Source of the DNA: a virus
DNA length: 64,000 bases
IMG/VR virus record: IMGVR_UViG_3300025264_002028
Coordinates: 39,240 to 103,239 of that record
Reading direction: 5' to 3' (one strand)
Shown here: one piece after another, positions 6,157-58,622 of the stretch
Layout of the letters: the number at the start of each line of letters is the position of its first letter
How positions within the stretch are numbered: position 1 is the first letter of the stretch
Notes under the pieces: model-generated
Databases searched by the model: none
Seen by the model: only the letters and a program-made list of their open reading frames with translations
What the model was told of the DNA's origin: nothing
Made by a program: the position numbers and the translations under genes

Positions 6157-7255
6157 TGAGAATCCTTTTCATTATATTTCCTACCTTTTTATGGCTATAC
6201 TTAGAGGCTGCCTTTCTAGCTTTAGATTTTTCTTTTTCAAATTCTAGAGGAGACTCTTTATATTTTGTATACATAGACCTCATAGCAAAGGCTAGTTGTT
6301 CTACATTAATCTCGCGCCACTTTGAATTAGCTGTATATAAGTTGGGTAATGTGTCAATAGCCTTATAGCATGGCACTTCTATTGAGGAAACCGAGATTCC
6401 CGAACAAAAATCATCCATCCCAGTTCCTTTAGTATATATTACAGGTATTCCCATAGCCATAGCTTCCATTGCTGGTATACACCAAGCTTCTCCATAGCTA
6501 GGCATTACGAAACAGTGACATTGATTCATTAGAGACAGCAAATCTACTCTATTGAATCTACCACTAATCACTACTTCCTCTTTATAATTTTGTCTAAGTT
6601 TAAGGCCGCTTTTTATGTGGGCAACATATTCTTGAAAAGTTTTCATGCATTCATTGGCGTCAGTATTTGGCCTATTTATTTTTAAAAATAAGTTCACGGG
6701 TTCTGCCGGGTGGAATTCCAAATGAAAAGCTTTAATCAAAGCCTCAATATTTTTTCTGGAAACAAATTCTCCTATAAAGCCAAAATTAAAAGTGCTTCGC
6801 AGTTCTTCCACTTGTGCTCCGATAGGAACATTTTTATAAGACGCAATAGGCAAGGAGTGGGGAATAATTTTAATGGGAACATCTACACCACTTTGTTGTG
6901 AAGCTTTCACTATTTGTTTATTTGGCACCCAAGCTTCATCCATTATATTAATATATTTATGCCACAATGAATCCCTAAAGTTGGATGTCTCTGTCACATA
7001 AAACCCTATATTTTTATATTTTGAATTATAAGAATAGAGGTGTGGTAATGTATGTTGTATACAGATATCAGATCCTGTCGTGTCATTTTGTTCTAACTCT
7101 GTAATTCTTTGTGGAATATCATCAGACATTTCGTCAAAAGAAATAGCACGAGGAACAACATCAATACCAGCCGCATCAATAGCTAATATATTATTGATAC
7201 AAGCGTTCGACCATCCAGTTCCGTCTTTATAATTCCCGACGTACAATATTTTCAT
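6146..7255 (-). CDS. Glycosyltransferase family 1 (GT-B)
   Basis: This 369-residue protein has FGFIGEFVSRKNIEALIKAF (about 153-172), the start of the C-terminal GT-B domain. It also has FVMPSYGEAWCIPAMEAMAMG (about 251), with the E-x7-E donor-phosphate motif of GT4-type retaining enzymes. The N-terminus MKILYVGNYKDGTGWSNA is a typical first strand and glycine loop. It overlaps glycosyltransferase genes on both sides, forming a three-gene GT-B run. Confidence 0.88.
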   Translation of the reverse strand: MKILYVGNYKDGTGWSNACINNILAIDAAGIDVVPRAISFDEMSDDIPQRITELEQNDTTGSDICIQHTLPHLYSYNSKYKNIGFYVTETSNFRDSLWHKYINIMDEAWVPNKQIVKASQQSGVDVPIKIIPHSLPIASYKNVPIGAQVEELRSTFNFGFIGEFVSRKNIEALIKAFHLEFHPAEPVNLFLKINRPNTDANECMKTFQEYVAHIKSGLKLRQNYKEEVVISGRFNRVDLLSLMNQCHCFVMPSYGEAWCIPAMEAMAMGIPVIYTKGTGMDDFCSGISVSSIEVPCYKAIDTLPNLYTANSKWREINVEQLAFAMRSMYTKYKESPLEFEKEKSKARKAASKYSHKKVGNIMKRILNDS

Positions 7256-9262: not shown

Positions 9263-10828
9263 TTAAATTTGGCACACTTTATTTACAATAATTCCACCAT
9301 CTTCTTTCTTGGATGTCTGTCCCATTAGGATCACCATGTTACCTTCGACTAAAAATTCCTTGTTTTTTTGGTAGTCTTCTGGGAATATGATGACTGAATC
9401 TAGTACGCCAGAGCTATCTTCCACTGATAAAAATGCCATAAGTTGTCCCGGATTTTTACCCTTTTTAGTCTTATATTCTCTTAAGGAATTAATCTGCACA
9501 GCCACATTTACTTTGCCTTTCATGTACCCAAGAGCTACATCTTTACATACAGTATTTACAAGGTTGCTTTGAACATAGTCTGTTTTACCGCAAGTTAAGG
9601 CGCATCCCATGTATTTCTCTTCCGTATCGGCAATCCATATGGGGTCATCTTTGATATCATAAAATGGGTTTTCTAGGGAGTTTTTGATATCTACTACTGT
9701 AATCAGTCTTCTAGAATTAATCTTGAGATTATTGATCATATATCCTATACATTGAATAAGAGTCTCATGGTTGGAATAATTCTCTTTGATATATTTTTGT
9801 TCTCTTGCAGATAGTTGTTTCCAGCTGTCAAACTCATATAGCATTTCATTTCTGTTCTTGTTATTATTTTTACCATTAAAAGCCCCTACAGAAATCAAAG
9901 CCACCACAGCCTGTTTATTCAAAATGGAACATAAGTTATTTAAAATATCAAGCCAATTCCAATCATCTATAGTCTTGTTCAAAATCTCTTCTGTTTCAGG
10001 AAGAAACTTGTTTATCTTATCACATTCTACTTCGCCCACATGTTTAACATTATTGATACCAAAGTAAATTGTTTTTGAGACAGACTGAAAGTTTTTATAT
10101 AGATGCTTCAAACGGGGAGGATATACTTCAATATCATTCATTTTAGCATCAGTCACTAGCTCTTTAATTTCTTGTTTGGGGTCTGGTTTTCTTTTTGCAT
10201 GATTAAGGTAAGTCTTAAAAAATCTCACGGGACGATAGCACTTACAGTATGCACTCCAATAGGCATTGATAGCATAGCTAACAGCGTGGGACTTGTTGAA
10301 AGCATAACGATTGGATTTTTCAATCCATGAAAAAATCTCTTCAGCGACTGCCGTAGTAACAGTGCCTTTATTTTTTGAGCCTTCTAGAAAAGACTTCTTG
10401 ACTTCTGTCATCAAGCCAGCTTTCTTTTTTCCGATAGCCTTACGTAATGAGTCGGCATCCTTTAGACTAAAACCTGCCAGTTCTTGAGCTATCATCATGG
10501 ACTGCTCTTGATAAACAAGCACCCCATATGTTTCTTCTAGGATGCGTTCTAAAGATTCATGTGGATATGTTACAGGATCAGTTTTGGATTTTCTATCTAC
10601 ATAATGTTGCGTCATAGACTTATCATCCGTAAAAGCTTTAAGACAGCCGGGACGGATTAGTGAAATAAGAGCGGCTAGTTCTTGAATATTTCGGGGGGCT
10701 ACCCTTCTAGCCCATGAACGTCCGAGTTGCGACTCTAGCTGAAATACTCCCTTTGTCCTACCATCACATATGAGATCCCACACCCTATCATCGTGAAAAT
10801 CGTTCATGTTAAACGTAAAATTCGCCAT
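9263..10828 (-). CDS. dnaE: DNA polymerase III alpha, C-terminal half (split DnaE)
   Basis: The 521-residue product begins exactly where the N-terminal half (11740-13287) ends in the DnaE alignment. It has DLICDGRTKGVFQLESQLG, fingers sequence YPHESLERILEETYGVLVYQEQ, GFSLKDADSLRKAIGKK and NRYAFNKSHAVSYAIN. A C-terminal OB fold (about 440-521) includes GVLDSVIIFPEDYQKN. The catalytic aspartates lie on the other subunit, so the two chains must assemble. Start ATG 10828 has AAGG 9 bases upstream; ATG 10807 is also possible. It overlaps the exonuclease gene by 20 bases. Confidence 0.9.
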   Translation of the reverse strand: MANFTFNMNDFHDDRVWDLICDGRTKGVFQLESQLGRSWARRVAPRNIQELAALISLIRPGCLKAFTDDKSMTQHYVDRKSKTDPVTYPHESLERILEETYGVLVYQEQSMMIAQELAGFSLKDADSLRKAIGKKKAGLMTEVKKSFLEGSKNKGTVTTAVAEEIFSWIEKSNRYAFNKSHAVSYAINAYWSAYCKCYRPVRFFKTYLNHAKRKPDPKQEIKELVTDAKMNDIEVYPPRLKHLYKNFQSVSKTIYFGINNVKHVGEVECDKINKFLPETEEILNKTIDDWNWLDILNNLCSILNKQAVVALISVGAFNGKNNNKNRNEMLYEFDSWKQLSAREQKYIKENYSNHETLIQCIGYMINNLKINSRRLITVVDIKNSLENPFYDIKDDPIWIADTEEKYMGCALTCGKTDYVQSNLVNTVCKDVALGYMKGKVNVAVQINSLREYKTKKGKNPGQLMAFLSVEDSSGVLDSVIIFPEDYQKNKEFLVEGNMVILMGQTSKKEDGGIIVNKVCQI

Positions 10829-11498
10829 TTGCAAAAGCCTTTTCAAATTTGGTTTTTTCTGCAAGCTTTCTTTGGAACTTCAAAAATTTAATTAAAATGT
10901 TAGCTGTATCCTTAACATCCTGAAGAGCATCGTGAGCTTTCTCTTTTGATTCTTCTGGGAAGCCAAAATATTCACGGAGGTAATCCATGTTTAAGGATTT
11001 TACATCTTTATTGTTTTCCGTCCATGAAAAAACCATGTCCATCAAATCAAGTTTAAAGATAGGATTAAAAAGTTTTTGTCTACCCTTAGTGTCGGTTGGC
11101 CCATGCTCTTCACACATTCGATGCACTATAGGCAAATCAAATCCAATAATATTATATCCGGCGGCTATTGGCGCAGTGTAACTAGATTTTCTGAAATTAT
11201 ATTTGTCACAGAACTGTCCAAATTTTTTCCAAACTGTCTTAGGGAGAGGTGCTTTCGCTAGTTTGTCCCTTGTCTTATGCGTAATTGTTAAAGCTTCATC
11301 TTCAAGCGGATCAACACCTGCCGCCACAGCCTTTTCCTCATCTACTATTGGCCTCATCTCACTATTAAAAACACCTCCGGGTTGAAGGGTTAATTTTCTA
11401 GCATGGATGGCAATTGCTGCTATCTGAGTAGGTTGCGTCATCAGTGGATTACGACTACCAGTTTCAAAATCGAAGACAATAATATCTCTATAGTTCAT
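10809..11498 (-). CDS. DnaQ-like 3'-5' exonuclease (proofreading)
   Basis: This 229-residue protein has the three DEDDh motifs: IVFDFETGSRNP (Exo I, about residues 7-18), YNIIGFDLPIVHRM (Exo II, about 111-124) and HDALQDVKDTANIL (Exo III, about 189-202). The expected role is proofreading for the split polymerase, since the gene lies between the two dnaE halves. It overlaps the small gene upstream by one base and dnaE-C by 20 bases. In most bacteria dnaQ is unlinked to dnaE, or the exonuclease is built into PolC, so this placement is unusual. Confidence 0.9.
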   Translation of the reverse strand: MNYRDIIVFDFETGSRNPLMTQPTQIAAIAIHARKLTLQPGGVFNSEMRPIVDEEKAVAAGVDPLEDEALTITHKTRDKLAKAPLPKTVWKKFGQFCDKYNFRKSSYTAPIAAGYNIIGFDLPIVHRMCEEHGPTDTKGRQKLFNPIFKLDLMDMVFSWTENNKDVKSLNMDYLREYFGFPEESKEKAHDALQDVKDTANILIKFLKFQRKLAEKTKFEKAFANGEFYV

Positions 11499-11737
11499 TA
11501 GGATGTCCCTTCTACAATTTCAAAGAATTTATCTAACGCATCATCAATATTTCTATATATTTTCGAGAACTTTACTTGTGAGCTACTTGCGTCTACTTGA
11601 TACATACCGTCTTTTCTATCTCTATACTCTGGGAGCATCTTTCTTAGGTCACACACTGAGATCTTATTATACTCTAGAGCGCACCCATAATAAATAACTG
11701 ATTTAAAGTCCTGCCTAAGGATGTTGTGGTCTCTCAT
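11498..11737 (-). CDS. Small hypothetical protein between polymerase genes
   Basis: This 79-residue protein begins MRDHNILRQDFKSVIYYGCA. I see no recognised motif. Its position, two bases after dnaE-N and overlapping the exonuclease start by one base, suggests co-translation with the polymerase subunits. A subunit-bridging role is speculative. Confidence 0.6.
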   Translation of the reverse strand: MRDHNILRQDFKSVIYYGCALEYNKISVCDLRKMLPEYRDRKDGMYQVDASSSQVKFSKIYRNIDDALDKFFEIVEGTS

Positions 11738-11739
11738 GT

Positions 11740-13287
11740 CTACTCCTTAATTTCCATAATTTTACTTAATAGATCAATACCTAATATATCAAACTTAACA
11801 TGTCCCTGACTTTCCAAGTCGCCCATTTCAAATGCAGCTATCATATTGCCGCTTTTATCCTGTGTCATAGGACAAATAGAATTCAGGCGATCCTTAGAAA
11901 TAATGACACCAGCAGCGTGTTTACCCATAGATTTGTTTGTACCCTCTATTCGTATGGCTTGTTCAAAAAGTGGCGCTAAGGAGCCTTCTAGGGCTCCCTC
12001 GTTGATCTTACACCACTTTCTAAGATTGTCTCCTTCGTTTAACAATGCCCATTTGATAATGGACCTTTCTTCCATACTTTCCAGCTGATCAGAAATATCT
12101 GCTTCGTTAGGAATACCCTTGGTGATCTCATTCATTTCAGCAAATGAAACGGCGTCATGCATTCTTAGTACTTCCTTAAGGGCTGCTCTTCCTTGTAGTC
12201 TACCAAATGTGATCATCTGAGACACTTTCTCTTCGCCATACTTTCTTTTAATATAATCTATTACTTCTTCTCGGTGTTCAGCTGGTACATCAATATCAAT
12301 ATCAGGTAGCGATATATATTCTTCGGTGTTTCTGCCTTCGTTATAGAATCTTTCAAAAATCAAATTATATTCAATAGGATCTACGTTAGTAATTCCTATA
12401 AGGTAGGATATTAAACAGCCAGCTGCTGATCCTCGACCGGGACCAGCGAGCCAACCCTCTGATTCAATATGTCTAATGATATCTTGTACAATAAGAAAAT
12501 ATCCTGAAAGATCTGCGCCAAATATGACATCTAGTTCCTTCTTTATTCTATCTACGTAGGCCTGTTTAGCCTGATCTGTTTTTACTTTACCTTGTGGAAT
12601 TAATAAACGTTTCCACCCTTTTCTACATAACTCTGTTAAATAATCGTTTTCTTCCATACCATCTGGACATACAAATTTAGGAAGCATCGGCTTCCTTAAG
12701 ATATCATATTCTTCACAGAGGTCAACTACTTGGTTCACTTTTTTGATTTCATTTGCATCAATACCCATACTTTCAAAGTCATCAGGAGAGGGGAGATAAA
12801 ATTCATCTGAATCAAAGAAGCGTCTGTCAGCCCCTTCTAGTTTCTTTTCTACTTTAGATAGAGTGGTTTTCATCCCAGAGCATAGTAATATTCTTTGTAG
12901 AATAGCATCTTCTTTCTGGGCATAATAGATTTCTCTTTCTCGTAGTGGTGAATCTAGTCGATACAGATTATCCTTTTTAGTCATCTTCTCTAATGTCGTA
13001 TTAAAATTGTCTGTACCTATGGTTCCGGTTAGCTCTATCAGATCAAACCAGCCCGCTTTGTTTTTTGCTAAGAGACTAAAGTCGCCAAAATCACATCCTA
13101 TAATTGGTTTAATATCCTCGGCTTGACACGCTTTATAAAAATTTACGGCGCCCGACAGTGATTTATAGTCAGTAATAGCGCACGCTTTATATCCATACTC
13201 CTTACATTTAGATACGATTTCATCAGGCTTACAAAAACCCCGAAGAAGACTGTAGTGCGTGTGTATACAGAGAGGAGCCCAGTTCAC
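11740..13287 (-). CDS. dnaE: DNA polymerase III alpha, N-terminal half with PHP and palm
   Basis: This 515-residue protein carries the PHP domain (CIHTHYSLLRG, residues 7-17; ACAITDY) and the palm with GPGRGSAAG (282-290). LPDIDIDV supplies D331 and D333, and VKFDILG supplies D500. These correspond to the three catalytic aspartates of DnaE. The chain stops 15 residues after D500, before the fingers, which are encoded at 9263-10828. The start is GTG at 13287 with GAGGA 8 bases upstream. The split falls in a loop and nothing essential appears lost. Confidence 0.92.
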   Translation of the reverse strand: MNWAPLCIHTHYSLLRGFCKPDEIVSKCKEYGYKACAITDYKSLSGAVNFYKACQAEDIKPIIGCDFGDFSLLAKNKAGWFDLIELTGTIGTDNFNTTLEKMTKKDNLYRLDSPLREREIYYAQKEDAILQRILLCSGMKTTLSKVEKKLEGADRRFFDSDEFYLPSPDDFESMGIDANEIKKVNQVVDLCEEYDILRKPMLPKFVCPDGMEENDYLTELCRKGWKRLLIPQGKVKTDQAKQAYVDRIKKELDVIFGADLSGYFLIVQDIIRHIESEGWLAGPGRGSAAGCLISYLIGITNVDPIEYNLIFERFYNEGRNTEEYISLPDIDIDVPAEHREEVIDYIKRKYGEEKVSQMITFGRLQGRAALKEVLRMHDAVSFAEMNEITKGIPNEADISDQLESMEERSIIKWALLNEGDNLRKWCKINEGALEGSLAPLFEQAIRIEGTNKSMGKHAAGVIISKDRLNSICPMTQDKSGNMIAAFEMGDLESQGHVKFDILGIDLLSKIMEIKE

Positions 13288-27158: not shown

Positions 27159-28427
27159 TCAAACCAGCTCTGTCATGGGATCTCGGTGATCTAGAAGATA
27201 CTGAGGTCGTCCACCTGTGTCGATAACCGTTGTGTCTCTAGGATCAATTCCAAGATTATAATAAATCGTACTAGTAATTTCCTGAAAATGAACTGGGCGC
27301 TCGACAGCGTGTTCACCAAGACGATTTGTTTCGCCAATCGTTTGACCAAGCTTCATACCGCCACCAGCCAATAGAGCGCAACTAACTTGTGGCCAGTGAT
27401 CTCGGCCAGCACCCTTATTAATCTTGGGTGTACGACCAAACTCGCCCCATACCACAACAGTCACATCATCAAGCATCCCTCTTTCATCCAGATCCTCAAC
27501 CAATGCGCTGACACACTGATCAAGCTTACCACCATGATCTCTAACGAGATCAAAGTTAGCGCCATGACTATCCCATCTACCATAAGAAAGGCTCACAGAA
27601 CGCACTCCTACCTCAACCAAACGGCGTGCCATGAGGACGTGTTCATTAACAGTAGGAGCACCGTCATACTGATACTTAAAAGGCTTACCATCTCCATAAC
27701 GTTCACGGATTTTAGGGTCCTCCTGACTTAAATCCAGAGCGTCTACAAGTTTACTAGAAGTAAGTACATCAAAAGCCTCATCAATGAAAACATCTCCTTC
27801 AGGCTTAATATTACCAAGGCCTGTTAGCAATTCTTTTCTAGATTGTAGCCTATCTTTAGTAATACCATTAAGGGTGAGGTCAGACATCATCTCGCCATTA
27901 GGTTTAAAAGGTCTATGGGAGATACCGAGATAGCCCTCACTACCAGACTCAGACCACGGGCTATGTTTGGTTTTAGCTGCCAGACCAATAGTGGCTGGAA
28001 CTGATACGTCTACGGGACCTTGAATCTTTGAAGCAACCGATCCAATACTAGGATAGCCAACTCCAACGATCTTTTCATTTCGTCCCCATCCGCTCATACA
28101 TTGATAGCCGTCATGACCACCAGCCGAACCGATCACTGAACGAATAGCAACAAACTTATCCATCATAGAGGCGATCTTAGGAAAACTTTCTCCAATCTGG
28201 ATACCGGGTACTGACGTATCGATAGGCTGGAATTCGCCTCTAATTTCTGCGGGAGCATCTGTTTTAATGTCCCACATGTCTTGATGCGGAGGACCTCCTC
28301 CTAAAAATATATTAATAACAGCTTTGTGTTGGGTGCCGTTTTGTTGTTGTGCCTGTAAAATATTAGGCAAAGACAACATACCAAAACCGCCCACCGATAA
28401 GAATCCTCTTCTTGATAGTCTAAACAT
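27159..28427 (-). CDS. DUF1501 family Tat-exported protein (divergent copy)
   Basis: This 422-residue protein begins with a twin-arginine signal (SRRGFLSVGGFGMLSLP). It carries the DUF1501 core: NIFLGGGPPHQDMWDIK, SYGRWDSHGANFD, VVVWGEFGRTPKIN and GRDHWPQVS. DUF1501 proteins belong to the alkaline-phosphatase/sulfatase-like superfamily and are abundant in Planctomycetes; their activity is not established. The expected location is periplasm or cell surface. It starts 13 bases after the second DUF1501 gene and is clearly different from the other two copies. Confidence 0.9.
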   Translation of the reverse strand: MFRLSRRGFLSVGGFGMLSLPNILQAQQQNGTQHKAVINIFLGGGPPHQDMWDIKTDAPAEIRGEFQPIDTSVPGIQIGESFPKIASMMDKFVAIRSVIGSAGGHDGYQCMSGWGRNEKIVGVGYPSIGSVASKIQGPVDVSVPATIGLAAKTKHSPWSESGSEGYLGISHRPFKPNGEMMSDLTLNGITKDRLQSRKELLTGLGNIKPEGDVFIDEAFDVLTSSKLVDALDLSQEDPKIRERYGDGKPFKYQYDGAPTVNEHVLMARRLVEVGVRSVSLSYGRWDSHGANFDLVRDHGGKLDQCVSALVEDLDERGMLDDVTVVVWGEFGRTPKINKGAGRDHWPQVSCALLAGGGMKLGQTIGETNRLGEHAVERPVHFQEITSTIYYNLGIDPRDTTVIDTGGRPQYLLDHRDPMTELV

Positions 28428-28440
28428 CTTAATCTCCTAA

Positions 28441-29691
28441 TCATAAAATTGATTGGGCTTCACCCTCTAACAAGTAACGCGGCCTTCCGCCATTATCCAC
28501 TTTCTGAATACTCATAGGAATATTAAAGTGGTCAAATAGTGTTGCGCACACATCCAACGGACCATATGGGTTTTCTTTAGGTGTATACGACTTATCAGCC
28601 TTACCTACAGTTCTTCCTAACTCATATTCTCCTCCAGCCATAAGCATAGGTGACATCGCGGGCCAGTGGTCGCGACCTGCGTTGCCATTAAGTTTAGTTC
28701 GGCCAAACTCTCCGGTGACCACCAGTAAAATCTTTTCATTTAATCCTTTTTCCCAGACATCCTGCAAGAAAGCCGCAATAGCCTGATCAACAGGAGGAAC
28801 TCTACCCTTAAGAGCATTAGAAATATTACCATGCATGTCCCAACCCCCGTAGTGCATCGTAATAAATTTTGTACCATACTCTGAAAGTCTACGTGCTAGT
28901 AACATTTGCTTTCCAATATCGGTATTACCATATGCATCTCTAGTTTTAGTTGGCTCTTTATCGATATTGAATGCCAGCTTAGCAGTGCCGAGAATAGTAT
29001 CATAAGCCTGTGTAGTATATTTACCTATGGAATTAGCTGCATTACTAACGATTTCATGCTGCTTATCCAAGGCCGCCAGTAATTCACCGCGCGACTTGAA
29101 TCTACCTATTTCTACTCTAGGACTGAGGTTGTCCTTGTTGGAAGGATCAAATGGTTTATACGCTCCACCTAACCATGAAGGTCCCTCTCCCGAAATACCA
29201 CCTTGTTTAATATAAGTTGGAATTCCCGTAGAAGTATTAGCTCCATAGATGGAAGAAACGATAGAGCCAAAACCCGGATATTTTGGGTTGGATGTTTGGG
29301 CTCGTTCGCCGTTGTAGTGACCCGTCATCATCCAGTGAGTTGCTTGACGATGAGATGAGTCACCGTGCGTAAAAGAATTAACAGTTACAATTTTATCTTT
29401 ATGTTTAAATGTTTGAAGCCAATCAGCCCCTAATGATATATTAGTAGCGCTGTCATATAACAACCCATTCACAGGTCTAAATTGATCAGGAACATTGAAA
29501 TCAGTGGGAGCATGAAACGTTTCAAATTGAGTGGGTCCACCACCCAGCCACAGCCATACTACTGATTTGTCTTTTAGAGCCAGCTCCTCTTCTTCCGATA
29601 ATGCTAAATCGGATAGACCTATCGTAGACATTCCAGCTCCGATACTTCCCATACGTAAAAAATCACGCCTATTAAAATAAAAATCTAACAT
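28441..29691 (-). CDS. DUF1501 family Tat-exported protein, duplicate A
   Basis: This 416-residue protein has a Tat signal (FNRRDFLRMGSIGAGMS) and DUF1501 motifs VWLWLGGGPTQFETFH, HYGGWDMHGNIS, VVTGEFGRTKLNG and GRDHWPAMSPM. A strong RBS (AGGAGG) precedes ATG 29691. It aligns without gaps to the copy at 51290-52540, about 36 differences in 416 by eye. It lies 12 bases after a putative virion protein gene and appears co-transcribed with ribonucleotide reductase. Host acquisition is likely, since such families typify PVC bacteria. Confidence 0.92.
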   Translation of the reverse strand: MLDFYFNRRDFLRMGSIGAGMSTIGLSDLALSEEEELALKDKSVVWLWLGGGPTQFETFHAPTDFNVPDQFRPVNGLLYDSATNISLGADWLQTFKHKDKIVTVNSFTHGDSSHRQATHWMMTGHYNGERAQTSNPKYPGFGSIVSSIYGANTSTGIPTYIKQGGISGEGPSWLGGAYKPFDPSNKDNLSPRVEIGRFKSRGELLAALDKQHEIVSNAANSIGKYTTQAYDTILGTAKLAFNIDKEPTKTRDAYGNTDIGKQMLLARRLSEYGTKFITMHYGGWDMHGNISNALKGRVPPVDQAIAAFLQDVWEKGLNEKILLVVTGEFGRTKLNGNAGRDHWPAMSPMLMAGGEYELGRTVGKADKSYTPKENPYGPLDVCATLFDHFNIPMSIQKVDNGGRPRYLLEGEAQSIL

Positions 29692-36980: not shown

Positions 36981-37160
36981 TCAGACGGTTTCCCGTACCG
37001 TGTCGCCAATAATCCATGCAGCGACAATAGTCGTAACACCCACAATTTGCTCAGTGTCGAATTCCATACCAAAAATTTCTGAGCCAACCACAGCGATAAC
37101 GCCAGCAGCGGCTACCCAAAAACGACGCGATTTAAGCAACGAAACAAGTTTATCTTTCAT
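36981..37160 (-). CDS. Small holin-like membrane protein
   Basis: This 59-residue frame begins MKDKLVSLLKSRRFWVAAAG and has two hydrophobic stretches (FWVAAAGVIAVVGSEIFG; IVGVTTIVAAWIIGD, about 39-53) with a basic N-terminus. This is a common design of small phage membrane proteins, often called holin-like. ATG 37160 follows AGGAG at 7 bases. It lies 25 bases after the matrixin gene, so a lysis link is possible. Confidence 0.7.
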   Translation of the reverse strand: MKDKLVSLLKSRRFWVAAAGVIAVVGSEIFGMEFDTEQIVGVTTIVAAWIIGDTVRETV

Positions 37161-37185: not shown

Positions 37186-37833
37186 TTAGCCGTCCGTGTT
37201 CACACAAATACTAGGTCCATACAGTTTCTGTATTTTTTGTATATCGTCTGCCTGTGGCCCCAAAGAGTTATTTATATAAGGAAACATTAACGCATTTTCA
37301 TCATTAGAATGGTCGAGACCTAATAAATGTCCGATTTCATGAGCGGCTACAGATCGTAATACGATACCCTGAAGATAATCCTCAGGTATTACCCATTTTT
37401 CAGCGAGGTCAAACTTAGTCAACAGCTGACCATCAAAATCTTTGTCATTCGGCATTTGTGCCCAAGCTAATATGCCTCCCCTTCTACCGAAACCCTCACG
37501 CCATCTACGTCCCACGCTAATGATAATATCGGCTTCATTTGAACGGTTGGTGTGCTCAAAAACAAGTGGAGTTATTGCAGACCAAGCGTCAAAAGCGAGC
37601 TTAAATTCGTGATCCCATACATCTCTTTCTAATTCTCTCGTGTCCCTGCCTTGCATATGATAAGAAAGATTATTTTTTCCCCATTTTGATTTTTTTCCAG
37701 ATACATCCTCTATTGAATCTTTAACGCCACATCTTGGATAGTTTTTTGATATCGAGTATGCTTCGTTTTGATTATATATTGAAAAACCTAAAAATGCCGA
37801 CAAGGTACCAGCACAAAATTTTCTTCTTCTCAT
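37186..37833 (-). CDS. Secreted matrixin (MMP-like) zinc metalloprotease with cysteine switch
   Basis: This 215-residue protein has an N-terminal basic-hydrophobic export signal (RRRKFCAGTLSAFLGFSI). At residues 33-37 it has PRCGV, in the context YPRCGVKDSIEDV, which resembles the cysteine switch of matrix metalloproteinase propeptides. KWGKNNLSYHM (50-60) matches the start of the MMP catalytic domain. HEIGHLLGLDH (165-175) supplies the zinc ligands and catalytic Glu, LMFPY is the Met-turn, and DDIQKIQKLYGP ends the domain. No hemopexin domain. Likely exported and self-inhibited until activated. It is flanked by small membrane proteins. Confidence 0.9.
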   Translation of the reverse strand: MRRRKFCAGTLSAFLGFSIYNQNEAYSISKNYPRCGVKDSIEDVSGKKSKWGKNNLSYHMQGRDTRELERDVWDHEFKLAFDAWSAITPLVFEHTNRSNEADIIISVGRRWREGFGRRGGILAWAQMPNDKDFDGQLLTKFDLAEKWVIPEDYLQGIVLRSVAAHEIGHLLGLDHSNDENALMFPYINNSLGPQADDIQKIQKLYGPSICVNTDG

Positions 37834-37844
37834 CGTAACCCCCT

Positions 37845-37893: not shown

Positions 37894-38076
37894 CTAGTCT
37901 TTTACAAACAGCTGTTTGAAAGAATCTACAGACCACCATCCCTGCCACACACCACCGAAAAACACACCAGCGCCGACACAAGCCAAAAAGAGCAACGGTC
38001 GACGGTTTGCTAATTCGAGGGGATGCGTGAGGCCATAAATTAGGCTTCGTAACGGTTTTTTTTCGTCAAAACCCAT
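37894..38076 (-). CDS. Small membrane protein
   Basis: This 60-residue protein has a basic N-terminus and one membrane segment (PLLFLACVGAGVFFGGVWQGW, centred at about residue 37). It sits in a group of three tiny membrane genes around the secreted metalloprotease. No family recognised; virion, lysis or envelope roles are possible. Confidence 0.6.
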   Translation of the reverse strand: MGFDEKKPLRSLIYGLTHPLELANRRPLLFLACVGAGVFFGGVWQGWWSVDSFKQLFVKD

Positions 38077-38104: not shown

Positions 38105-38299
38105 TTAAAACACCCTAAAAACGCCATATGCAATTACAGCAACGGCAGCAGCTATCGCAAACCACTTAAATACACTCGCTAGAGCTAAAAGTAAATCACG
38201 AAGTGGTCTGGGTCGCTTTATTCTCCACTCTCTATATCTATCTACTCGTTTTCTATAGGCCTCCCTACGTTTTTCTGCCTTTTCTGCAAATGATGCCAT
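38105..38299 (-). CDS. Small membrane protein with long basic N-terminus
   Basis: This 64-residue protein has about 35 mostly basic residues (EKAEKRREAYRKRVDRYREW). A single C-terminal membrane helix follows (FKWFAIAAAVAVIAYGVFRVF). It lies directly before the 37894 gene in transcription order. Function unknown. Confidence 0.6.
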   Translation of the reverse strand: MASFAEKAEKRREAYRKRVDRYREWRIKRPRPLRDLLLALASVFKWFAIAAAVAVIAYGVFRVF

Positions 38300-43699: not shown

Positions 43700-44338
43700 T
43701 TAATCCTCCCATTCCAGTGCTGCTGACACGTTAGAAAAGTTTTCTTGAAATATTTTTTTGATTCCGTTTGCGACCTCCCTATGTTCCTTTTGTGTCTCCT
43801 CCTTACATCTTAGTTGCAAGTAATGTACCCAACTCCTAATACTTCCTTTCATATACATAGTAGTCTGTATTCCCAATGGAAGAATCATTCTAGCGGATTC
43901 TTTTGCTACACCCATAGCAATCATGTCACCATAAACCTGAAGACATCTATCCATTGCTTGTTTTGCATGGGCGTGCCATTTTTGATCAGCAATATCCGTA
44001 CTACTCTGCCGATTACTTTTGGCTTGGTTACGCAGTTCTAGGTCCTCTATTTCTTGGGCTACTGAATATCTTTGGGAAAATTCTTGGAAAGAAAAAGAGC
44101 GATGCCGCAAAATTTGTGCGGCTATCGCCCTACTAGTTTTTATCTCCACGCACATATCTACCATTTCAAATGGAGACCAGTGCTTATGTTTAATTAAATA
44201 TTTAATAAGACGAGGAGCAGTTTCATTGTTAGACTGATTTTCAGGATTACTGACCCTAGCACAATATACTATCAGCTCCTCTGGCAAAGCTAGATCTTCA
44301 ATTAACGGAGCTGTTATACTAACGAGCTTTACTTCCAT
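43700..44338 (-). CDS. thyX: Flavin-dependent thymidylate synthase, canonical
   Basis: This 212-residue ThyX has the full signature RHRSFSFQEFSQRY (78-91) with AQILRHR preceding it, plus HWSPFEM and a C-terminal ARMILPLG region. It methylates dUMP to dTMP with methylene-tetrahydrofolate and NADPH. ATG 44338 with GAGGA at 8 bases is preferred over a TTG three bases upstream. A second, altered ThyX is at 53673-54299. Confidence 0.93.
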   Translation of the reverse strand: MEVKLVSITAPLIEDLALPEELIVYCARVSNPENQSNNETAPRLIKYLIKHKHWSPFEMVDMCVEIKTSRAIAAQILRHRSFSFQEFSQRYSVAQEIEDLELRNQAKSNRQSSTDIADQKWHAHAKQAMDRCLQVYGDMIAMGVAKESARMILPLGIQTTMYMKGSIRSWVHYLQLRCKEETQKEHREVANGIKKIFQENFSNVSAALEWED

Positions 44339-44341
44339 CAA

Positions 44342-45027: not shown

Positions 45028-46254
45028 CTATTTTTTTCCCCAACCCTCTCGTAATACACGTAAGGCATTACCCCCTAGTATGTGTTCCATCTGTTTTTCC
45101 GTGTACCCTAACGCGCATAAATAACTCGTAAGTCGAGGCATTTCTGACATATCTACAATTTCGTCTGGAGGATCAGTAAACCCATCCAAGTCACTACCTA
45201 TTCCTACTACTTCTATTCCACCTACATTTATCATATGATTAATATTATTTTCTATATGCTTTAATCCTAATCCACTGTGCGAATTAGATAAATAATAAGT
45301 CATCAGTATTACACCAATAACCCCTCCATTATCAGCAATCCATTTAATTTCTTTATTGGTTAGGTTGATAGGGTCACGGTTAATATCAAAGGAGGCCATG
45401 TGACTAGCTATAATACAATTCTTTTTGCGATGGTGCTTGGCGATATCCATAACCTTAGCTCTGGCACTGGGCGTACAGTGTGTGATGTCTATCAGCATCC
45501 CCAACTCCAGCATTCTTTCTACTACCTTTTCGCCTATGGATGTCAACCCTTTATTCATATCCCAACTGCCAGTTACTTTACGCCAGTCAAGCATCTTGCT
45601 AGAATATTCTGGATAAGGAAACACGGGATAAGCCACATGGTTAGGATAGAAATGAGCCAAAGTGAGATAGGCCACACCCCGATTGAAAAGGTATACCAGA
45701 TTAGATAATAATTCTTTTTCAACTGAATCGGCACACGCTCCATCTTCCACGGTTTTTCCGCCCTCTATACCATTAAGAGAATGGGCTCCTTCCACAGAAT
45801 GCACAACACACATATCTCCAGCCTCAAGACCTTGGTTCAATGTTGAAACAGAATCAGACAAACATACTTTTCTAGAAGGCTTCTTCTTGTTATATGAAAT
45901 AATCTGACGTTCCATTTCATCTAACATAAAATTTGTAGCATCAAAATAGGGAGGATCTACGATGGCGCGTCGTACACTGGGGAATATTCTAAAGAGCCAC
46001 CTTATAAGGGAGATTTCTTTAATCCACTCTTGTTCTAAAATATAAGCAGTAGATAGTATTACATCTACACCACCCTTGTCCATCTTGGGAAACGTAACTC
46101 GATTACTAAGTGGCCAAAATTTCTTGTCAAACATTCTAGATAGCCAATTTCTTTTGGATGAGTCTAGACTGATTTCCAAAATAATAGCCTTGAGGGCTGG
46201 ATGCGTATGTAGATCTACAAGCGTAGATTCTTTATGTAGATTTTGCCAGTTCAT
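45028..46254 (-). CDS. Renal-dipeptidase-like M19 metallopeptidase
   Basis: This 408-residue protein has LVDLHTHPALKA (metal site, about 13-24), HSVEGAHSLNG (bridging Glu), MLIDITHCTPSARAKV and IASHMASFDINRDP (metal His and substrate Arg), and VVGIGSDLDGF (catalytic Asp). All expected positions of a family M19 dipeptidase are present. There is no signal peptide, so it appears cytoplasmic. ATG 46254 is used, one base after the upstream stop; GTG 46263 is possible. Such an enzyme is unusual in a phage and may be host-derived. Confidence 0.85.
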   Translation of the reverse strand: MNWQNLHKESTLVDLHTHPALKAIILEISLDSSKRNWLSRMFDKKFWPLSNRVTFPKMDKGGVDVILSTAYILEQEWIKEISLIRWLFRIFPSVRRAIVDPPYFDATNFMLDEMERQIISYNKKKPSRKVCLSDSVSTLNQGLEAGDMCVVHSVEGAHSLNGIEGGKTVEDGACADSVEKELLSNLVYLFNRGVAYLTLAHFYPNHVAYPVFPYPEYSSKMLDWRKVTGSWDMNKGLTSIGEKVVERMLELGMLIDITHCTPSARAKVMDIAKHHRKKNCIIASHMASFDINRDPINLTNKEIKWIADNGGVIGVILMTYYLSNSHSGLGLKHIENNINHMINVGGIEVVGIGSDLDGFTDPPDEIVDMSEMPRLTSYLCALGYTEKQMEHILGGNALRVLREGWGKK

Positions 46255-46255
46255 A

Positions 46256-46684
46256 TCAATCACTGAATAAGATATTTAAGTTACCCCGAACAGTTGTTTC
46301 AACATCTTCCAAATGATCATCAGACATTGGATATAGAAAGGGAGAAACCTCGGCTCGCACCTCCGTGGGAGCGTCAGGAATCCATTCCAAATCTTTTACG
46401 GTAAGAACCACAGAAGCTCCCTTAGATTTAAAGTCGTGCCCTTCGATTTCATTTACAGACGTAATAGATACATGTACATCATCAGTGTATTTAGGGTTCC
46501 ATACCTTACCGTCTTTATTCCACAGCGGAAGACTGCCCCTCCATTCGTTCTGAGTGGGACCAAGAATTTCACTGACATATGGTACACCGCTAGGCATTAA
46601 TCCTAAAACGTTTATTTCAAATTCCTGATGATGAATACCAGAAGGCGGCACCCACTGCACATGTATCTCTGGATATTTTCTCAC
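46256..46684 (-). CDS. Hypothetical protein (GTG start)
   Basis: This 142-residue, beta-rich protein contains HVQWVPPSGIHHQEFEINVL and VTVKDLEWIPDAP-like sequence. The start is GTG 46684, with AAAGG six bases upstream formed by the last codons of the preceding gene. It may be a structural or adhesin-type protein; no family recognised. Confidence 0.55.
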   Translation of the reverse strand: MRKYPEIHVQWVPPSGIHHQEFEINVLGLMPSGVPYVSEILGPTQNEWRGSLPLWNKDGKVWNPKYTDDVHVSITSVNEIEGHDFKSKGASVVLTVKDLEWIPDAPTEVRAEVSPFLYPMSDDHLEDVETTVRGNLNILFSD

Positions 46685-51289: not shown

Positions 51290-52540
51290 CTAAAGAATTA
51301 CCTCAGCTTCACCTTCTAACAAATAACGTGGCCTCCCGCCATTATCCACTTTCTGAATACTCATAGGAATATTAAAGTGGTCAAATAGTGTTGCACACAC
51401 ATCCAGTGGCCCATATGGGTTTTCTTTAGGTGTATACGACTTATCTGCCGTACCAATTGTTCTCCCTAGCTCATATTCCCCACCAGCCATAAGCATAGGT
51501 GACATTGCGGGCCAGTGATCTCGTCCAGCATTTCCATTAAGTTTGGTTCTGCCAAATTCTCCAGTAACTACCAAAAGAATCTTTTCATTGAGACCCCGGT
51601 CCCACACATCCTGTAAAAAAGCCGCAACAGCTTGATCAACAGGAGGAACTCTACCTTTAAGGGCATTAGAAATATTCCCGTGCATATCCCACCCACCATA
51701 GTGCATAGTAACAAATTTAGTTCCATGTTCTGCTAGGCGTCGTGCAAGCAGCATTTGTTTACCAATATCAGTATTGCCATATGCGTCTCTAATTTTAGTG
51801 GGCTCCTTGTCTATGTCAAATGCCAGTTTAGCAGTACCAAGTATGGTATCATATGCTTGCACAGTATATTTTCCTATAGAAGTAGCCGCATTACTAACGA
51901 TTTCATGCTGCTTATCCAAAGCTGCTAGTAATTCACCACGCGATTTAAATCTATCCACCTTAACTCGCGGGCTAAGATTATCTTTATTAGAAGGATCAAA
52001 AGGTTTATATGCGCCACCTAACCATGATGGTCCTTCTCCAGAGATACCACCCTGCTTAATATAGGTTGGAATTCCAGTAGAAGTATTAGCACCATAGATA
52101 GAGGAAATAATAGAACCAAAACCCGGATACTTGGGATTAGAAGTTTGTGCTCGTTCTCCATTGTAGTGACCCGTCATCATCCAGTGAGTTGCTTGACGAT
52201 GAGATGAATCTCCATGAGTGAAGGAATTAACACTAACTAATTTATCTTTATGTTTAAATGTTTCAAACCAGTCAGCCCCAAAAGAAAGATTAGTGTCGGG
52301 ATCATATAGAAGGCCGTTTACAGGTCTAAATTGATCAGGAACATTGAAATCGGTGGGGGCATGGAAAGTTTCAAACTGAGTAGGACCCCCTCCAAGCCAT
52401 AGCCATATTACAGACTTATCCTTAAGCGCCAGCTCCTCCTCTTCGGCCATAGCTAAATCAGAAAGACCCATAGCTGTCATGCCCGATCCAATACTACCAA
52501 TCCTAAGAAAATCACGTCTGTTAAAATTGATATCTAACAT
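51290..52540 (-). CDS. DUF1501 family Tat-exported protein, duplicate B
   Basis: This 416-residue protein has a Tat signal (FNRRDFLRIGSIGSGMT) and the same DUF1501 motifs as duplicate A, with no gaps between them. Differences cluster in the signal region and around residues 79-95 and 192-196. RBS GGGAG lies 9 bases before ATG 52540. It follows a secreted serine protease by 17 bases. Retention of both copies with mostly conservative changes suggests selection on both; that is inference. Confidence 0.92.
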   Translation of the reverse strand: MLDINFNRRDFLRIGSIGSGMTAMGLSDLAMAEEEELALKDKSVIWLWLGGGPTQFETFHAPTDFNVPDQFRPVNGLLYDPDTNLSFGADWFETFKHKDKLVSVNSFTHGDSSHRQATHWMMTGHYNGERAQTSNPKYPGFGSIISSIYGANTSTGIPTYIKQGGISGEGPSWLGGAYKPFDPSNKDNLSPRVKVDRFKSRGELLAALDKQHEIVSNAATSIGKYTVQAYDTILGTAKLAFDIDKEPTKIRDAYGNTDIGKQMLLARRLAEHGTKFVTMHYGGWDMHGNISNALKGRVPPVDQAVAAFLQDVWDRGLNEKILLVVTGEFGRTKLNGNAGRDHWPAMSPMLMAGGEYELGRTIGTADKSYTPKENPYGPLDVCATLFDHFNIPMSIQKVDNGGRPRYLLEGEAEVIL

Positions 52541-52557
52541 CGCACTATCTCCCGATT

Positions 52558-53472
52558 TTAATATATGAGTGTAGGAAATTTAATAGCATCCGGTGTGAAG
52601 CTTTTTTGATCACTACTAGACTTAGATTTAGGTCCCTCAACTGGTAATGATAAAATTTCTTCCATGTCGGGCACTTCTTTATTCATATCTATGGCCCACA
52701 AAATATCATGTTTCGTTGCCCATACTCGCATTCGTCGTACCGGTACGATAAGATTAAAAGTTTCGCCCGCCCCTCTTACAAGCATTCCCATGTATTGTCC
52801 AGCCTTATCGCCTGATCTTTCTGACAGAAAAACACCACCACCGGAACTACCGGGAAATGCTGTAACTGTAGTTTGATCAAAAACGGTACCATCCCCACTA
52901 CCTAAATTTAGCACACGTCCTACCTGAGAAACAATACCGCGTGTCATAGAATTAGAACCGGTTTGCCCCAATAATGATCCCACATGATACAGTTCAGCCC
53001 CAATAGAGACAGGCTTACCCTTTCCATTATAAAATTCAGCATTACTTTTAATAAAACTTCTTTTTCTAACCATAAGTAACGCAAGATCTTCTCCATCAGT
53101 AGCATCGCTGTATTTAATGACCTTGGTATCCATTTTTAGCTCACCTACCCGTCTACCATTTTCTACCAACTCTTGTACAATTTGTGCGTCTTTAAATTCA
53201 ACCACCTTTTTTGGTTGACCATTTTCTATGACATTTCGTACAGAGCGGAGGCCACTAATAACATGCGCTGCCGTCCATACAAAATTAATTTGTTCAGTTT
53301 CATTACCCTCAGTTTTTACAGCTCTAGTAATAATAACTCCCGATCCTTCACTAGAGGAGGCTTTTACAGTAACGGAAATATCTTGTAGCTTTTTATAAAG
53401 CTCCTGTGCATTAGTAGTATTAACACACGCAACACACACCAACAAAATTGCCAAAGTCATTCGTCTAATCAT
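52558..53472 (-). CDS. Secreted trypsin-like serine protease
   Basis: This 304-residue protein has a signal peptide (MTLAILLVCVACVNTTNA). The catalytic triad is in order: FVWTAAHVI (His70), DGEDLALL (Asp129) and FPGSSGGGVF (Ser210), as in the DegP/trypsin clan. No PDZ domain is present; the C-terminus (about 265-304) is a Ser/Lys-rich tail. It should act outside the cytoplasm. It shares a transcription unit with the DUF1501 duplicate. Substrate unknown. Confidence 0.88.
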   Translation of the reverse strand: MIRRMTLAILLVCVACVNTTNAQELYKKLQDISVTVKASSSEGSGVIITRAVKTEGNETEQINFVWTAAHVISGLRSVRNVIENGQPKKVVEFKDAQIVQELVENGRRVGELKMDTKVIKYSDATDGEDLALLMVRKRSFIKSNAEFYNGKGKPVSIGAELYHVGSLLGQTGSNSMTRGIVSQVGRVLNLGSGDGTVFDQTTVTAFPGSSGGGVFLSERSGDKAGQYMGMLVRGAGETFNLIVPVRRMRVWATKHDILWAIDMNKEVPDMEEILSLPVEGPKSKSSSDQKSFTPDAIKFPTLIY

Positions 53473-53487
53473 GATCTATCTCTCCTT

Positions 53488-53676
53488 TTAAAGGTCTTGG
53501 TCTTGCCACTTGCGCCATTCTAGATCCTCTTCCGGCTCCAGAAAATATAGATTGTAAACTTTTTCCAACGTATCAATTGCTTCCCGATCAACCACATACT
53601 CTGTTTTTAAACCTGTTTTTCTGTATTGTGATATCACACGCTCAATAGCTTCCCGCATGTCTTCAAACATACTCAT
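53488..53676 (-). CDS. Small helical hypothetical protein
   Basis: This 62-residue protein begins MSMFEDMREAIERVISQYRK and ends acidic (EPEEDLEWRKWQDQDL). Its start overlaps the stop of the second thyX (ATGA). No family recognised. Confidence 0.6.
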   Translation of the reverse strand: MSMFEDMREAIERVISQYRKTGLKTEYVVDREAIDTLEKVYNLYFLEPEEDLEWRKWQDQDL

Positions 53677-54299
53677 GCTCCAAATGCTGCAATACTGTGT
53701 TCAAAAGGGTTACCTTCAATACTTTTTACCTGATCTAACATTGTACTCGCAATTTCACGAATTTCAACCTGTGCATCGGATTTATTTCGTAAACCCTGAA
53801 AATGCATAAAACTCCTCCAGTTAAACATAACATCAGCTGTGATCTGCGTATTGTATGATCGGAAAAATCGAGCTGATTCTTTAGCTCTTTTTCTATCTAT
53901 ACCATGGTCTTCTATTAGACTTTTGACACAATTATGGTACATTTTTAGCCCAAGATTAGTATAGGCTTTTAAAGAATCTTGCCAATTAATAGGCCAATCA
54001 TCAGGAATATAGAATTTATCTTCCTTGATCTCTTTATACCGCGCAGACTCGCCATTAACATTTACGCCAATTCTATGTTTAATGATATGAATGTGGCTTG
54101 CGATGTCTGTGGTTACTAGAAAATGTATAGCCGACTTCTCAAATGGTGTATGGTGACCATTTTCAGCTAACATTTTTAAGAGATTACCCATACGTTTACG
54201 TTTATTATCGGTTAAATCGCGAGATGTGCTCGTCCAAGCCGATAAGGCATGCGATTCATCTCCACCATAATAACCTATCAATTCAATTTCGTTACGCAT
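53673..54299 (-). CDS. thyX: ThyX paralogue with altered signature
   Basis: This 208-residue protein has HHTPFEKSAIHFLVTT and the ThyX region IIKHRIGVNVNGESARYKE (72-90). Relative to the RHRxxSx4SxRY signature, the first Arg is Lys74 and the first Ser is Val79, while HR and SARY remain. FRSYNTQITADVMFNWRSFM matches the conserved ThyX C-terminal part. ATG 54299 overlaps the SNase stop. It may be a true synthase with a relaxed motif or act on a different pyrimidine; the canonical copy is at 43700-44338. Confidence 0.82.
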   Translation of the reverse strand: MRNEIELIGYYGGDESHALSAWTSTSRDLTDNKRKRMGNLLKMLAENGHHTPFEKSAIHFLVTTDIASHIHIIKHRIGVNVNGESARYKEIKEDKFYIPDDWPINWQDSLKAYTNLGLKMYHNCVKSLIEDHGIDRKRAKESARFFRSYNTQITADVMFNWRSFMHFQGLRNKSDAQVEIREIASTMLDQVKSIEGNPFEHSIAAFGA

Positions 54300-54609
54300 T
54301 TCCAGCAGTCCTATATGGCCATTTTTCCGCGAGTGTCTTATTAATATTACCAACCTTTACTAACCATCTGCCATATTTTCCGGTCTTGGTTGTTGTTATG
54401 GTTACATAACCACTGGCATCTCTTTCGCTCGCTATCAACATTCTAAGTTCTTGAGTTGCCAGTTTCCAGTCTTCATGCCCCCTCTCAGGTGTATCTACAT
54501 CCATCAATCTTCCACGCACCCTTATTGTAATATTAAAACCTAAATCTACATCAAAATCTACTGTATCTCCATCTACAATTTTTATTACTTTTGCTTTATA
54601 CTCATACAT
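54292..54609 (-). CDS. Staphylococcal nuclease-like protein, paralogue 2
   Basis: This 105-residue protein begins MYEYKAKVIKIVDGDTVDFD and has RLMDVDTPERGHEDW and TKTGKYGRWLVKVG. It parallels the SNase gene at 20345-20662 along its whole length. It is coupled to thyX copy 2 by an 8-base overlap and to the zinc-ribbon gene by a shared base (TAATG). Intracellular, no signal peptide. Confidence 0.85.
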   Translation of the reverse strand: MYEYKAKVIKIVDGDTVDFDVDLGFNITIRVRGRLMDVDTPERGHEDWKLATQELRMLIASERDASGYVTITTTKTGKYGRWLVKVGNINKTLAEKWPYRTAGNA

Positions 54610-55040: not shown

Positions 55041-55066
55041 CGTATCACTCCTTACATTGTAAGCAG

Positions 55067-55324
55067 TGGAGGTGGGGGGAATTGAACCCCCGTCCAGTAT
55101 AAACTCAAATAACAACGTCTACATGTTTAAACTCACTCACGAAAAACGTAACTCTTCGTCCTAATTGGGTAACAAGGTCTAGGACAACCCCGCGCTACTA
55201 GGCAGCGAGTGCTAAGCTAGGCTCGGCAAGTAAAATTAGTTTAATCGATTTTTTAACTGGCCGTTCGATCAACCAGTACATGCAGTTATTACTCTTGTTC
55301 ATCTGTCGATCCCTTATCACCCCC
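55067..55324 (-). ncRNA. ssrA: Transfer-messenger RNA (tmRNA), tag AEPSLALAA
   Basis: This 258-base RNA has a tRNA-like domain: 5' GGGGGTG (55318-55324) pairs with 3' CACCTCC (55068-55074, one G-U), discriminator A at 55067, and a T-arm GGGGG-TTCAATT-CCCCC. The 5' GGGATCGACAG resembles the tmRNA GATTCGACGG. PK1 is visible: ACTGG/CCAGT with the loop TTGATCG pairing CGATTAA. The tag frame starts at GCC (55225-55227), reads AEPSLALAA and ends TAGTAG. A single downstream pseudoknot (GGGT/ACCC with GTCCTA/TAGGAC) follows. TGCATG and AATAAC pair with the 3' side as in helix 2. CCA is not encoded. It rescues stalled ribosomes and tags proteins for proteolysis. Confidence 0.92.
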
Positions 55325-55974: not shown

Positions 55975-56045
55975 GGGATAACTCCCCGAGTATGGAATAT
56001 GTAACATATAGCCATATCATAATACACATTTTTCCCTGTTATTAG

Positions 56046-56118
56046 TACCCTCGGCAGGATTTGAACCTGCGACCCACGGTTTAGAAGACCGTTGCTCTGT
56101 CCCCTGAGCTACAAGGGC
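56046..56118 (-). tRNA. tRNA-Arg (anticodon UCU)
   Basis: This 73-base cloverleaf has acceptor GCCCTTG/CGAGGGT (with G-U pairs), D-stem GCTC/GAGC, anticodon stem ACGGT/ACCGT with loop CTTCTAA (anticodon TCT, reads AGA) and T-arm GCAGG-TTCAAAT-CCTGC. CCA is not encoded. It overlaps the end of the dCMP deaminase gene by 10 bases. AGA codons suit an AT-rich phage. Confidence 0.95.
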
Positions 56119-57967: not shown

Positions 57968-58318
57968 TCACTCCTTCCAAGCTATTTCTATAAGATTCTT
58001 TCCGAAAAATTGTTTTGTAAATTCCACTGCATCCAGTGGGTCAAATTTTTTACAGGTATATATATCTACACTAAAAAAAGCAGGAGTGATCGCATCCCAC
58101 GTATACATATGCATACCAGATTCTTTCCAATGCATGTATCCACACCACCCATATTCGGCGTCGTGAGACAAAACTGGAGCCATAAGTGATGTCATATCAA
58201 GCAATGGCCCAGTTTGTTCTATATAATCCGACATATTCTGCGCAGACATGGGGGACGTTAGAGTGCCTTCAATTATCAGTCTTTGCCTAATAATAGTTGG
58301 TGATAAATCTTTCCACAT
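57968..58318 (-). CDS. speD: S-adenosylmethionine decarboxylase-like (SpeD) protein
   Basis: This 116-residue protein has MHWKESGMHMYTWDAITP (62-79) and FFSVDIYTCKKFDP (81-94). These align with the SpeD autocleavage site (E66-S67) and catalytic Cys (C89). Where SpeD has His five residues after the Ser, this has Tyr72, with a His at 70. The family forms a pyruvoyl cofactor by self-cleavage. Homologues in phages and elsewhere can be AdoMet, ornithine or arginine decarboxylases, so the substrate is open. RBS GGAGG precedes ATG 58318. Confidence 0.75.
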   Translation of the reverse strand: MWKDLSPTIIRQRLIIEGTLTSPMSAQNMSDYIEQTGPLLDMTSLMAPVLSHDAEYGWCGYMHWKESGMHMYTWDAITPAFFSVDIYTCKKFDPLDAVEFTKQFFGKNLIEIAWKE

Positions 58319-58322
58319 AATA

Positions 58323-58622
58323 CTAACCCTCCAAAAAAGGTGGCACTCTTTTATCAATTGCCTTTTGGACTCTTCCCTTAAAGGCTATTGCAGAAAAGGG
58401 GAGGTCGATGGTTACTTTCACATTTGTGTCTTGTATATCAATGGAGCCCTTTGTATTAACACCCCGGCTAATTCCTTCAAATTGAAACCTATTGTCCGTT
58501 TCTTCAATAGAAGCATCACTTATCTCAAATGATTCTAAAAGATCATCCAGCGCAAATTTCATTTTATCTTTCGCGTCACAAACTTGAAGAGTGTGATTAT
58601 AAGTTCCTGTTACTTTAGGCAT
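58323..58622 (-). CDS. Small protein, PHA-granule-region-like
   Basis: This 99-residue protein has TKGSIDIQDTNVKVTIDLPF (about 57-76) and KGRVQKAIDKRVPPFL. This pattern resembles the polyhydroxyalkanoate-system protein family (PHA_gran_rgn). The similarity is modest. It precedes speD by four bases. Confidence 0.5.
   Translation of the reverse strand: MPKVTGTYNHTLQVCDAKDKMKFALDDLLESFEISDASIEETDNRFQFEGISRGVNTKGSIDIQDTNVKVTIDLPFSAIAFKGRVQKAIDKRVPPFLEG

Follow-up and report, generated by a model that had tools for sequence, protein, structure and literature searches.

Animal matrix metalloproteinases (MMPs; MEROPS M10A), among them proMMP-9, -2 and -3, combine a catalytic fold that carries the HExxHxxGxxH and Met-turn motifs with a PRCG cysteine switch, features shared by the phage-encoded enzyme analyzed here; the latter lacks, however, their 80-residue helical prodomain and their hemopexin domain, and bears a Tat-type signal. 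Bacterial matrixins are already known (PMC12587646), and matrixins have been annotated in a few phages and in insect viruses. In the papers searched, however, no clade of phage matrixins that combine a cysteine switch with a Tat-type signal is described. Karilysin from Tannerella forsythia pairs its matrixin domain, as the phage enzyme does, with a propeptide that is very short, but its switch is an aspartate (PMC8259862) and its secretion domains are different. In mirolysin, too, the pro-segment is very short and Cys23 serves as a cysteine switch (PMC8259862), but this enzyme belongs to the pappalysins (M43), a different metzincin family, and is T9SS cargo. The Paenibacillus plasmid matrixins WP_202677761 and WP_338709029 bear a switch as well (RCG[LQ]PD); they differ from the phage enzyme by a long prodomain (a PG_binding_1 domain in WP_202677761), by long C-terminal repeats and by an identity of only ~31–34%.

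Two further comparisons involve viruses. A metzincin associated with Listeria prophages, often encoded downstream of holin–lysin genes, sensitises cells to phage lysis (PMC8235301). This protein, of the Mtz-Tim pair, is a phage-linked, secreted metzincin like the phage matrixin, but it has a Sec signal and a TIMP-like partner, and the word 'cysteine' is absent from the main text of PMC8235301. The MMPs of insect viruses (granulovirus, ascovirus, entomopoxvirus, iridovirus) are virus-encoded matrixins too; they belong, however, to viruses of animals, and their identity to the phage matrixin is low (~20–26%).

The gene that we examined lies in a 64,000-nucleotide stretch of DNA (the window), which corresponds to bases 39240–103239 of a 103,239-base virus record, probably itself a fragment. 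Its features are as follows.

37839–37844, minus strand: Shine-Dalgarno-like AGGGGG, 5 nt before the matrixin ATG (sequence)
37186–37833, minus strand: phage matrixin gene, 215 aa, ATG start (ORF call, PF00413, AlphaFold2 model)
37753–37833, minus strand: predicted Tat-type signal MRRRKFCAG..., approximately residues 1–27 (RRx(x)[FILA] motif)
37717–37737, minus strand: switch segment PRCGVKD, residues 33–39 (C35 codon 37729–37731)
37216–37689, minus strand: catalytic domain, residues 49–206 (Pfam 49–205; pLDDT mostly >90)
37309–37341, minus strand: catalytic zinc site HEIGHLLGLDH, residues 165–175 (sequence)
37279–37293, minus strand: Met-turn ALMFP, residues 181–185 (sequence)

The 215-aa translation of ORF 37186–37833 (MRRRKFCAGTLSAFLGFSIYNQNEAYSISKNYPRCGVKDSIED...HEIGHLLGLDHSNDENALMFPYINNSLGPQADDIQKIQKLYGPSICVNTDG) matches PF00413 (Peptidase_M10, matrixin) over the full profile (positions 1–159) with E=1.5e-34 and 119.6 bits, for a curated cut-off of 24 bits; the match is far above chance. 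Metzincin matches in NCBIfam were weak and below cut-off. All the motifs listed in the initial annotation of the locus are present, in order, between residues 33 and 206: the PRCGV switch with C35, HEIGHLLGLDH, the Met-turn ALMFP and DDIQKIQKLYG (residues 196–206), the C-terminal helix being normal. Moreover, His165, Glu166, His169 and His175 of the zinc site and L182, M183 and P185 of the Met-turn are invariant in the alignment of matrixin relatives. By its profile score, by its HExxHxxGxxH and Met-turn motifs and by its catalytic fold, the protein is thus a member of PF00413. The solved structures closest to it in sequence are those of MMP-9, MMP-2 and MMP-1, with the PRCG segment inside several of the alignments; the best match in the PDB sequence search, proMMP-9 (E=1e-23), aligns from the switch onwards.

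The protein also departs from animal MMPs. The ligands of their structural zinc (three His, one Asp) are missing, as recognized by alignment to MMP-9 and MMP-2: the HGD segment is gone, LAHA has become LAWA, and the His preceding FD is replaced (GD.HFD in the animal enzymes, LLTKFD in the phage protein). Because these ligands are lost, we call the enzyme a matrixin rather than a true MMP; on this point, its earlier description calls for correction. In addition, the helical prodomain of ~80 residues typical of MMPs is replaced by a pro-segment in which ~20 residues separate the signal from the catalytic domain, which bears out the short prodomain previously reported. The protein is encoded identically (100% aa) in four IMG/VR contigs. 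Comparison with its closest relative, L220 (72% aa identity), gave a dN of 0.21 for a dS of ~2.5, which is saturated, indicating purifying selection on the matrixin.

The switch segment PRCGVKD differs from the MMP consensus PRCGxPD by a Lys in place of the Pro, and qualifies as a cysteine switch. Its Cys lies 16 residues ahead of the first Trp in the catalytic domain, nearly the spacing of animal MMPs (17 residues in MMP-2). The initial annotation would have been contradicted by homologues that uniformly lack the switch; instead, the cysteine is kept in every intact relative of the clade described below (21 of 21 members, i.e. the window protein and 20 others). The flanking Pro, Arg and Gly occur in no more than 9, 8 and 9 of these 21 proteins, respectively: PRCG occurs in three and CPFC or CPYC in four, the remaining variants being PVC, HPFC, VKC, YRC, CRC, KCG, FRC, CFC, MIC and TEC. 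It is therefore the cysteine itself that is conserved. Since the set contains near-copies (L219/L233 and L224/L285/L287), these counts amount to ~17 or 18 independent observations; in L217 and L195, where two candidate cysteines lie close together, the first was chosen manually. The Cys–Trp distance is 14–20 residues throughout the clade, except in one subgroup (9 residues), and no second Cys is invariant among the 21 members. A C35–C210 disulphide was considered and rejected: C210, the sole possible partner, is absent from L220 and other relatives, and neither the window matrixin nor L220 has any further Cys in the pro-segment. Some relatives carry an extra Cys ahead of the switch Cys, either three residues ahead (CPxC; L229, L252, L222 and L282) or two residues ahead (L285, L224, L287, L286 and L188). 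Judging from their sequences, such doubled cysteines could possibly act as a redox trigger.

We also examined where an AlphaFold (AF2) model places C35, a check that had been proposed together with the switch. The model, built from a 28-sequence alignment, has a mean pLDDT of 86.5; most of the catalytic domain exceeds 90, residues 31–40 average 82, and residues 7–29 are below 50. Its best structural match is proMMP-2 (1eak_C; Z 23.5, rmsd 2.4, model residues 29–209), followed by other proMMP-2 and proMMP-9 entries, proMMP-3 (1slm) and proMMP-1 (1su3); pro-karilysin (4r3v) gave a Z of 21.8, and the top 50 rows are all MMPs and karilysin, with Z of 21–23.5. As the top matches are latent pro-forms, the C35 segment of the model sits at the zymogen switch position. 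In the prediction, then, the pro-segment is docked as in latent pro-MMPs, in agreement with the proposed role of C35. The model of L229, which has CPFC and no PRCG, averages 72 and drops below 50 at the switch; this poor prediction leaves the segment unplaced.

A scan of IMG/VR with the signature HExGHx[LFIMV]G..H, seven residues, M.P returned at least 120 stretches; genes of the matrixin type are thus no rarity among viral contigs. Together with the phage examples already annotated, this number contradicts the view, expressed in the initial annotation, that such a protease would be unusual in a phage. The scan and a second search yielded, from viral contigs, at least 20 proteins that share the short architecture of the window matrixin and are 36–72% identical to it. 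By contrast, tblastn found no relative of the protein in 50,697 records of sequenced phages, and a locus search with an MMP-based alignment returned only copies of the window virus. Maximum-likelihood analysis of 73 sequences places the window protein and 20 short matrixins in one clade (97 ultrafast bootstrap/96 SH-aLRT; 98% of bootstrap trees), which lies apart from human MMPs and from the planctomycete and Paenibacillus matrixins sampled. Next to the clade stand phage matrixins that combine a PG_binding_1 prodomain (Pfam-confirmed in three) and a PRCG switch; two short phage matrixins devoid of an apparent signal are also close. Matrixins of the neighbouring groups (L139, L146, L165, L209 and L211) have the LAWA/LAYA signature and the switch Cys in common with the window protein, but differ by their large PG_binding_1 prodomain and by having no apparent export signal. 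One phage contig, L223, encodes two matrixins (5308–7116), one of the Tat type and one of a PRCGCPD type without apparent signal.

The export signal previously noted is present, but its type had gone unremarked: it is a twin-arginine signal, which probably directs the protein to the Tat pathway. Indeed, all 21 clade members conform to the pattern RRx(x)[FILA]; the Tat assignment is based on this N-terminal motif (RRxF[LI]-like, with a hydrophobic stretch). The N-termini inspected for related phage matrixins with a different architecture show no RR signal. Three DUF1501 proteins of the same phage (see below) display the RR pattern too (NRRDFL, SRRGFL). Plain Sec secretion was set aside, as the conserved RR fits Tat better; the trypsin-like protein of this phage, for its part, has a Sec-type signal. 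Tat transports folded, often metal-loaded proteins, and a lock that acts ahead of export therefore makes sense.

The genes around the matrixin identify the context as that of a phage, and several of them bear on its host and on the use of the enzyme.

36981–37160, minus strand: holin-like small membrane protein, 59 aa, directly downstream of the matrixin gene (phrog_297, E=0.0019)
37894–38076, minus strand: small membrane protein, 60 aa, directly upstream of the matrixin gene (pattern ..YG.THP..A..P..F..G..GWW)
38105–38299, minus strand: small membrane protein, 64 aa, further upstream (homologues adjoin matrixins in L220 and L155/L228)
27159–28427, minus strand: DUF1501 Tat protein, host indicator (PF07394, E=3.5e-82)
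28441–29691, minus strand: DUF1501 Tat protein, second copy (PF07394, E=3.8e-58)
51290–52540, minus strand: DUF1501 Tat protein, third copy (PF07394, E=6.2e-59)
45028–46263, minus strand: M19 membrane-dipeptidase family protein (PF01244, E=4.9e-50)
52558–53472, minus strand: trypsin-like protease with a Sec-type signal (PF13365, E=4.5e-10)

By reading, the window encodes a DnaB-like helicase, a DNA polymerase III alpha in pieces, PhoH-like and RecA-like proteins and a ribonucleotide reductase, the latter with matches in many phages, and the left arm of the record encodes tail-like proteins; a sigma factor and a RIIB homologue are also present. The earlier proposal that a genuine phage encodes an exported matrixin with a switch is supported. 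No near DNA relative of the 28–52 kb region was found among the 50,697 phage records. The window also contains a tmRNA gene (55066–55324, tag AEPSLALAA), a tRNA-Arg (56045–56118), an S-adenosylmethionine decarboxylase-like gene (57968–58357, PF02675) and, by reading, two ThyX-like thymidylate synthase genes (43700–44341 and 53673–54353); the polymerase III alpha-like sequence (9263–13287) is split into two ORFs with an exonuclease-like ORF (10809–11498) between them. A metabolic block on L007 (1–4600) and L006 (17135–19998) comprises, by reading, aldehyde dehydrogenase, aminotransferase, saccharopine-dehydrogenase-like and class I aldolase-like genes.

The host assignment comes mainly from the DUF1501 genes. 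The protein encoded at 27159–28427 shares 73% identity, across 422 aa, with a protein from a Blastopirellula MAG, its best 80 loci are nearly all labelled planctomycetes, and it has no match among the 50,697 phage records; these genes point to planctomycete bacteria as the host, which the phage probably infects. Several relatives, too, have DUF1501 genes close to their matrixin, and two of the three DUF1501 proteins of this phage are near-identical paralogues. Matrixin matches occur in 103 of 294 planctomycete (Planctomycetota) genomes, but none of the matches listed spans the switch, and identity reaches 37% at best; likewise, a profile search of 392 planctomycete genomes gave no match aligning over the switch, and no PRCG-like segment was seen by eye in the best planctomycete matrixins. 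The planctomycete wall was long held to be proteinaceous and was later found to include peptidoglycan (PMC4432640); in Planctopirus limnophila, the peptidoglycan synthesis genes are mostly dispensable (PMC10632474).

Homologues of the holin-like protein share the matrixin locus in nine other viral contigs, at distances from adjacency to ~6 kb, and family members match holin PHROGs weakly (phrog_9987, best 1e-5; phrog_5847; phrog_4712). Several relatives encode, not far from the matrixin, homologues of the 60-aa protein, which has no family match, and L155/L228 combine a related short matrixin with a homologue of the 64-aa protein. Overall, one or both flanking membrane-protein families co-locate with the matrixin in many related contigs, and they are absent from control loci, save for further copies of the window virus and L155/L228. 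An M19 dipeptidase homologue adjoins the matrixin in L217 and is close to it in L237, and a trypsin-like gene of the Sec type is near it in L156 and L237; in L252 and L222, the matrixin lies near terminase-like genes instead of the membrane-protein cassette. Among 45 otherwise unassigned ORFs of the incomplete record, no peptidoglycan hydrolase was detected with Pfam and PHROGs; an ordinary endolysin may be encoded elsewhere in the phage genome.

We give about even chances to the following reading as a whole: a latent matrixin of a planctomycete phage is exported folded and cuts envelope proteins late in infection. The protein would very probably take up its fold around the catalytic zinc while still in the cytoplasm, with C35 of the ~20-residue pro-segment binding the metal and keeping the enzyme off, as the conserved cysteine and the model suggest. 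The twin-arginine signal would quite probably route the folded, locked protein through the host Tat pathway, judging from its motif. Outside the cell, cleavage of the pro-segment or oxidation of the cysteine would open the protease, which, late in infection and together with its holin-like neighbours and the other exported hydrolases, would cut envelope proteins and aid progeny release. The lock and the export are well supported, and we infer the target and the role in lysis. The presumed planctomycete host makes envelope proteins a more plausible target, and the Listeria metzincin offers, by analogy, a precedent for a supporting role in lysis. The conserved membrane-protein neighbours, one of them holin-like, count in favor of lysis; the weakness of the holin match (E no better than 1e-5, in a single family member, and 0.0019 for the window copy) and the presence of peptidoglycan in planctomycetes (PMC4432640) count against it. 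In a stronger version, which we hold to be unlikely, the enzyme would be a protein-cutting 'endolysin' of planctomycete phages, i.e. a Tat-exported zymogen locked in the reducing cytoplasm and opened outside by oxidation or cleavage, with the CPxC of some relatives as the redox trigger, that would replace peptidoglycan hydrolysis or act beside it.

The same enzyme and lock could also serve a non-lytic purpose, the secreted protease trimming host surface proteins in the course of infection so as to block other phages, loosen the holdfast or matrix, or gain nutrients, in the manner of this phage's other host-modifying genes. We regard this alternative as possible, if on the unlikely side: the record contains many host-like genes, including the three DUF1501 genes and many glycosyltransferase-like genes, Tat export could operate early and needs no holin, and the membrane-protein neighbours are missing in some relatives; yet the window matrixin lies directly between small membrane-protein genes, an arrangement that recurs in divergent contigs. 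It is improbable that the protein is a working matrixin devoid of a true switch, whose pro-segment Cys is kept for a disulphide, for lipid or metal binding, or for redox sensing. The extra cysteines of nine relatives (CPxC in four, two residues ahead in five) and the unplaced segment in the L229 model would fit such a role, but the switch Cys is the sole invariant one and stands at a near-fixed distance from the catalytic domain (bar the one short subgroup), the window protein and L220 have no other Cys in the pro-segment, and the predicted docking resembles that of pro-MMPs.

Two other explanations concern the origin and the site of action of the protein. Phages employ proteases in head maturation, and some related phage matrixins have no apparent export signal, e.g. 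that of L165, which lies amid seemingly virion genes; a virion or assembly protease acting on phage proteins, with a signal-like N-terminus of another role, is nevertheless very improbable here, given that the RR signal is present in 21 of 21 clade members and that no recognised head or tail genes adjoin the window matrixin. Finally, matrixins are common enough in Planctomycetota for the recent capture of a host gene, or contaminating cellular DNA, to come to mind. We rejected capture because the matches listed from planctomycete genomes never reach the switch; with relatives that sit in viral contigs among phage genes and a clade separate from host matrixins, we give this origin hardly any credence.

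This matrixin, apparently latent and Tat-exported, provides a small, defined protease amenable to testing in phages that probably infect a phylum with a long-contested wall biology. The occurrence of the same lock and export tag in ~20 related phages suggests a phage tool directed against a protein-rich cell envelope, as the initial annotation had surmised, and, more broadly, that phages could use folded-exported proteases locked by a single cysteine on cell envelopes. If true, the cysteine-switch principle would extend to phage-encoded, Tat-exported enzymes, and these enzymes may offer tools to open planctomycete cells.
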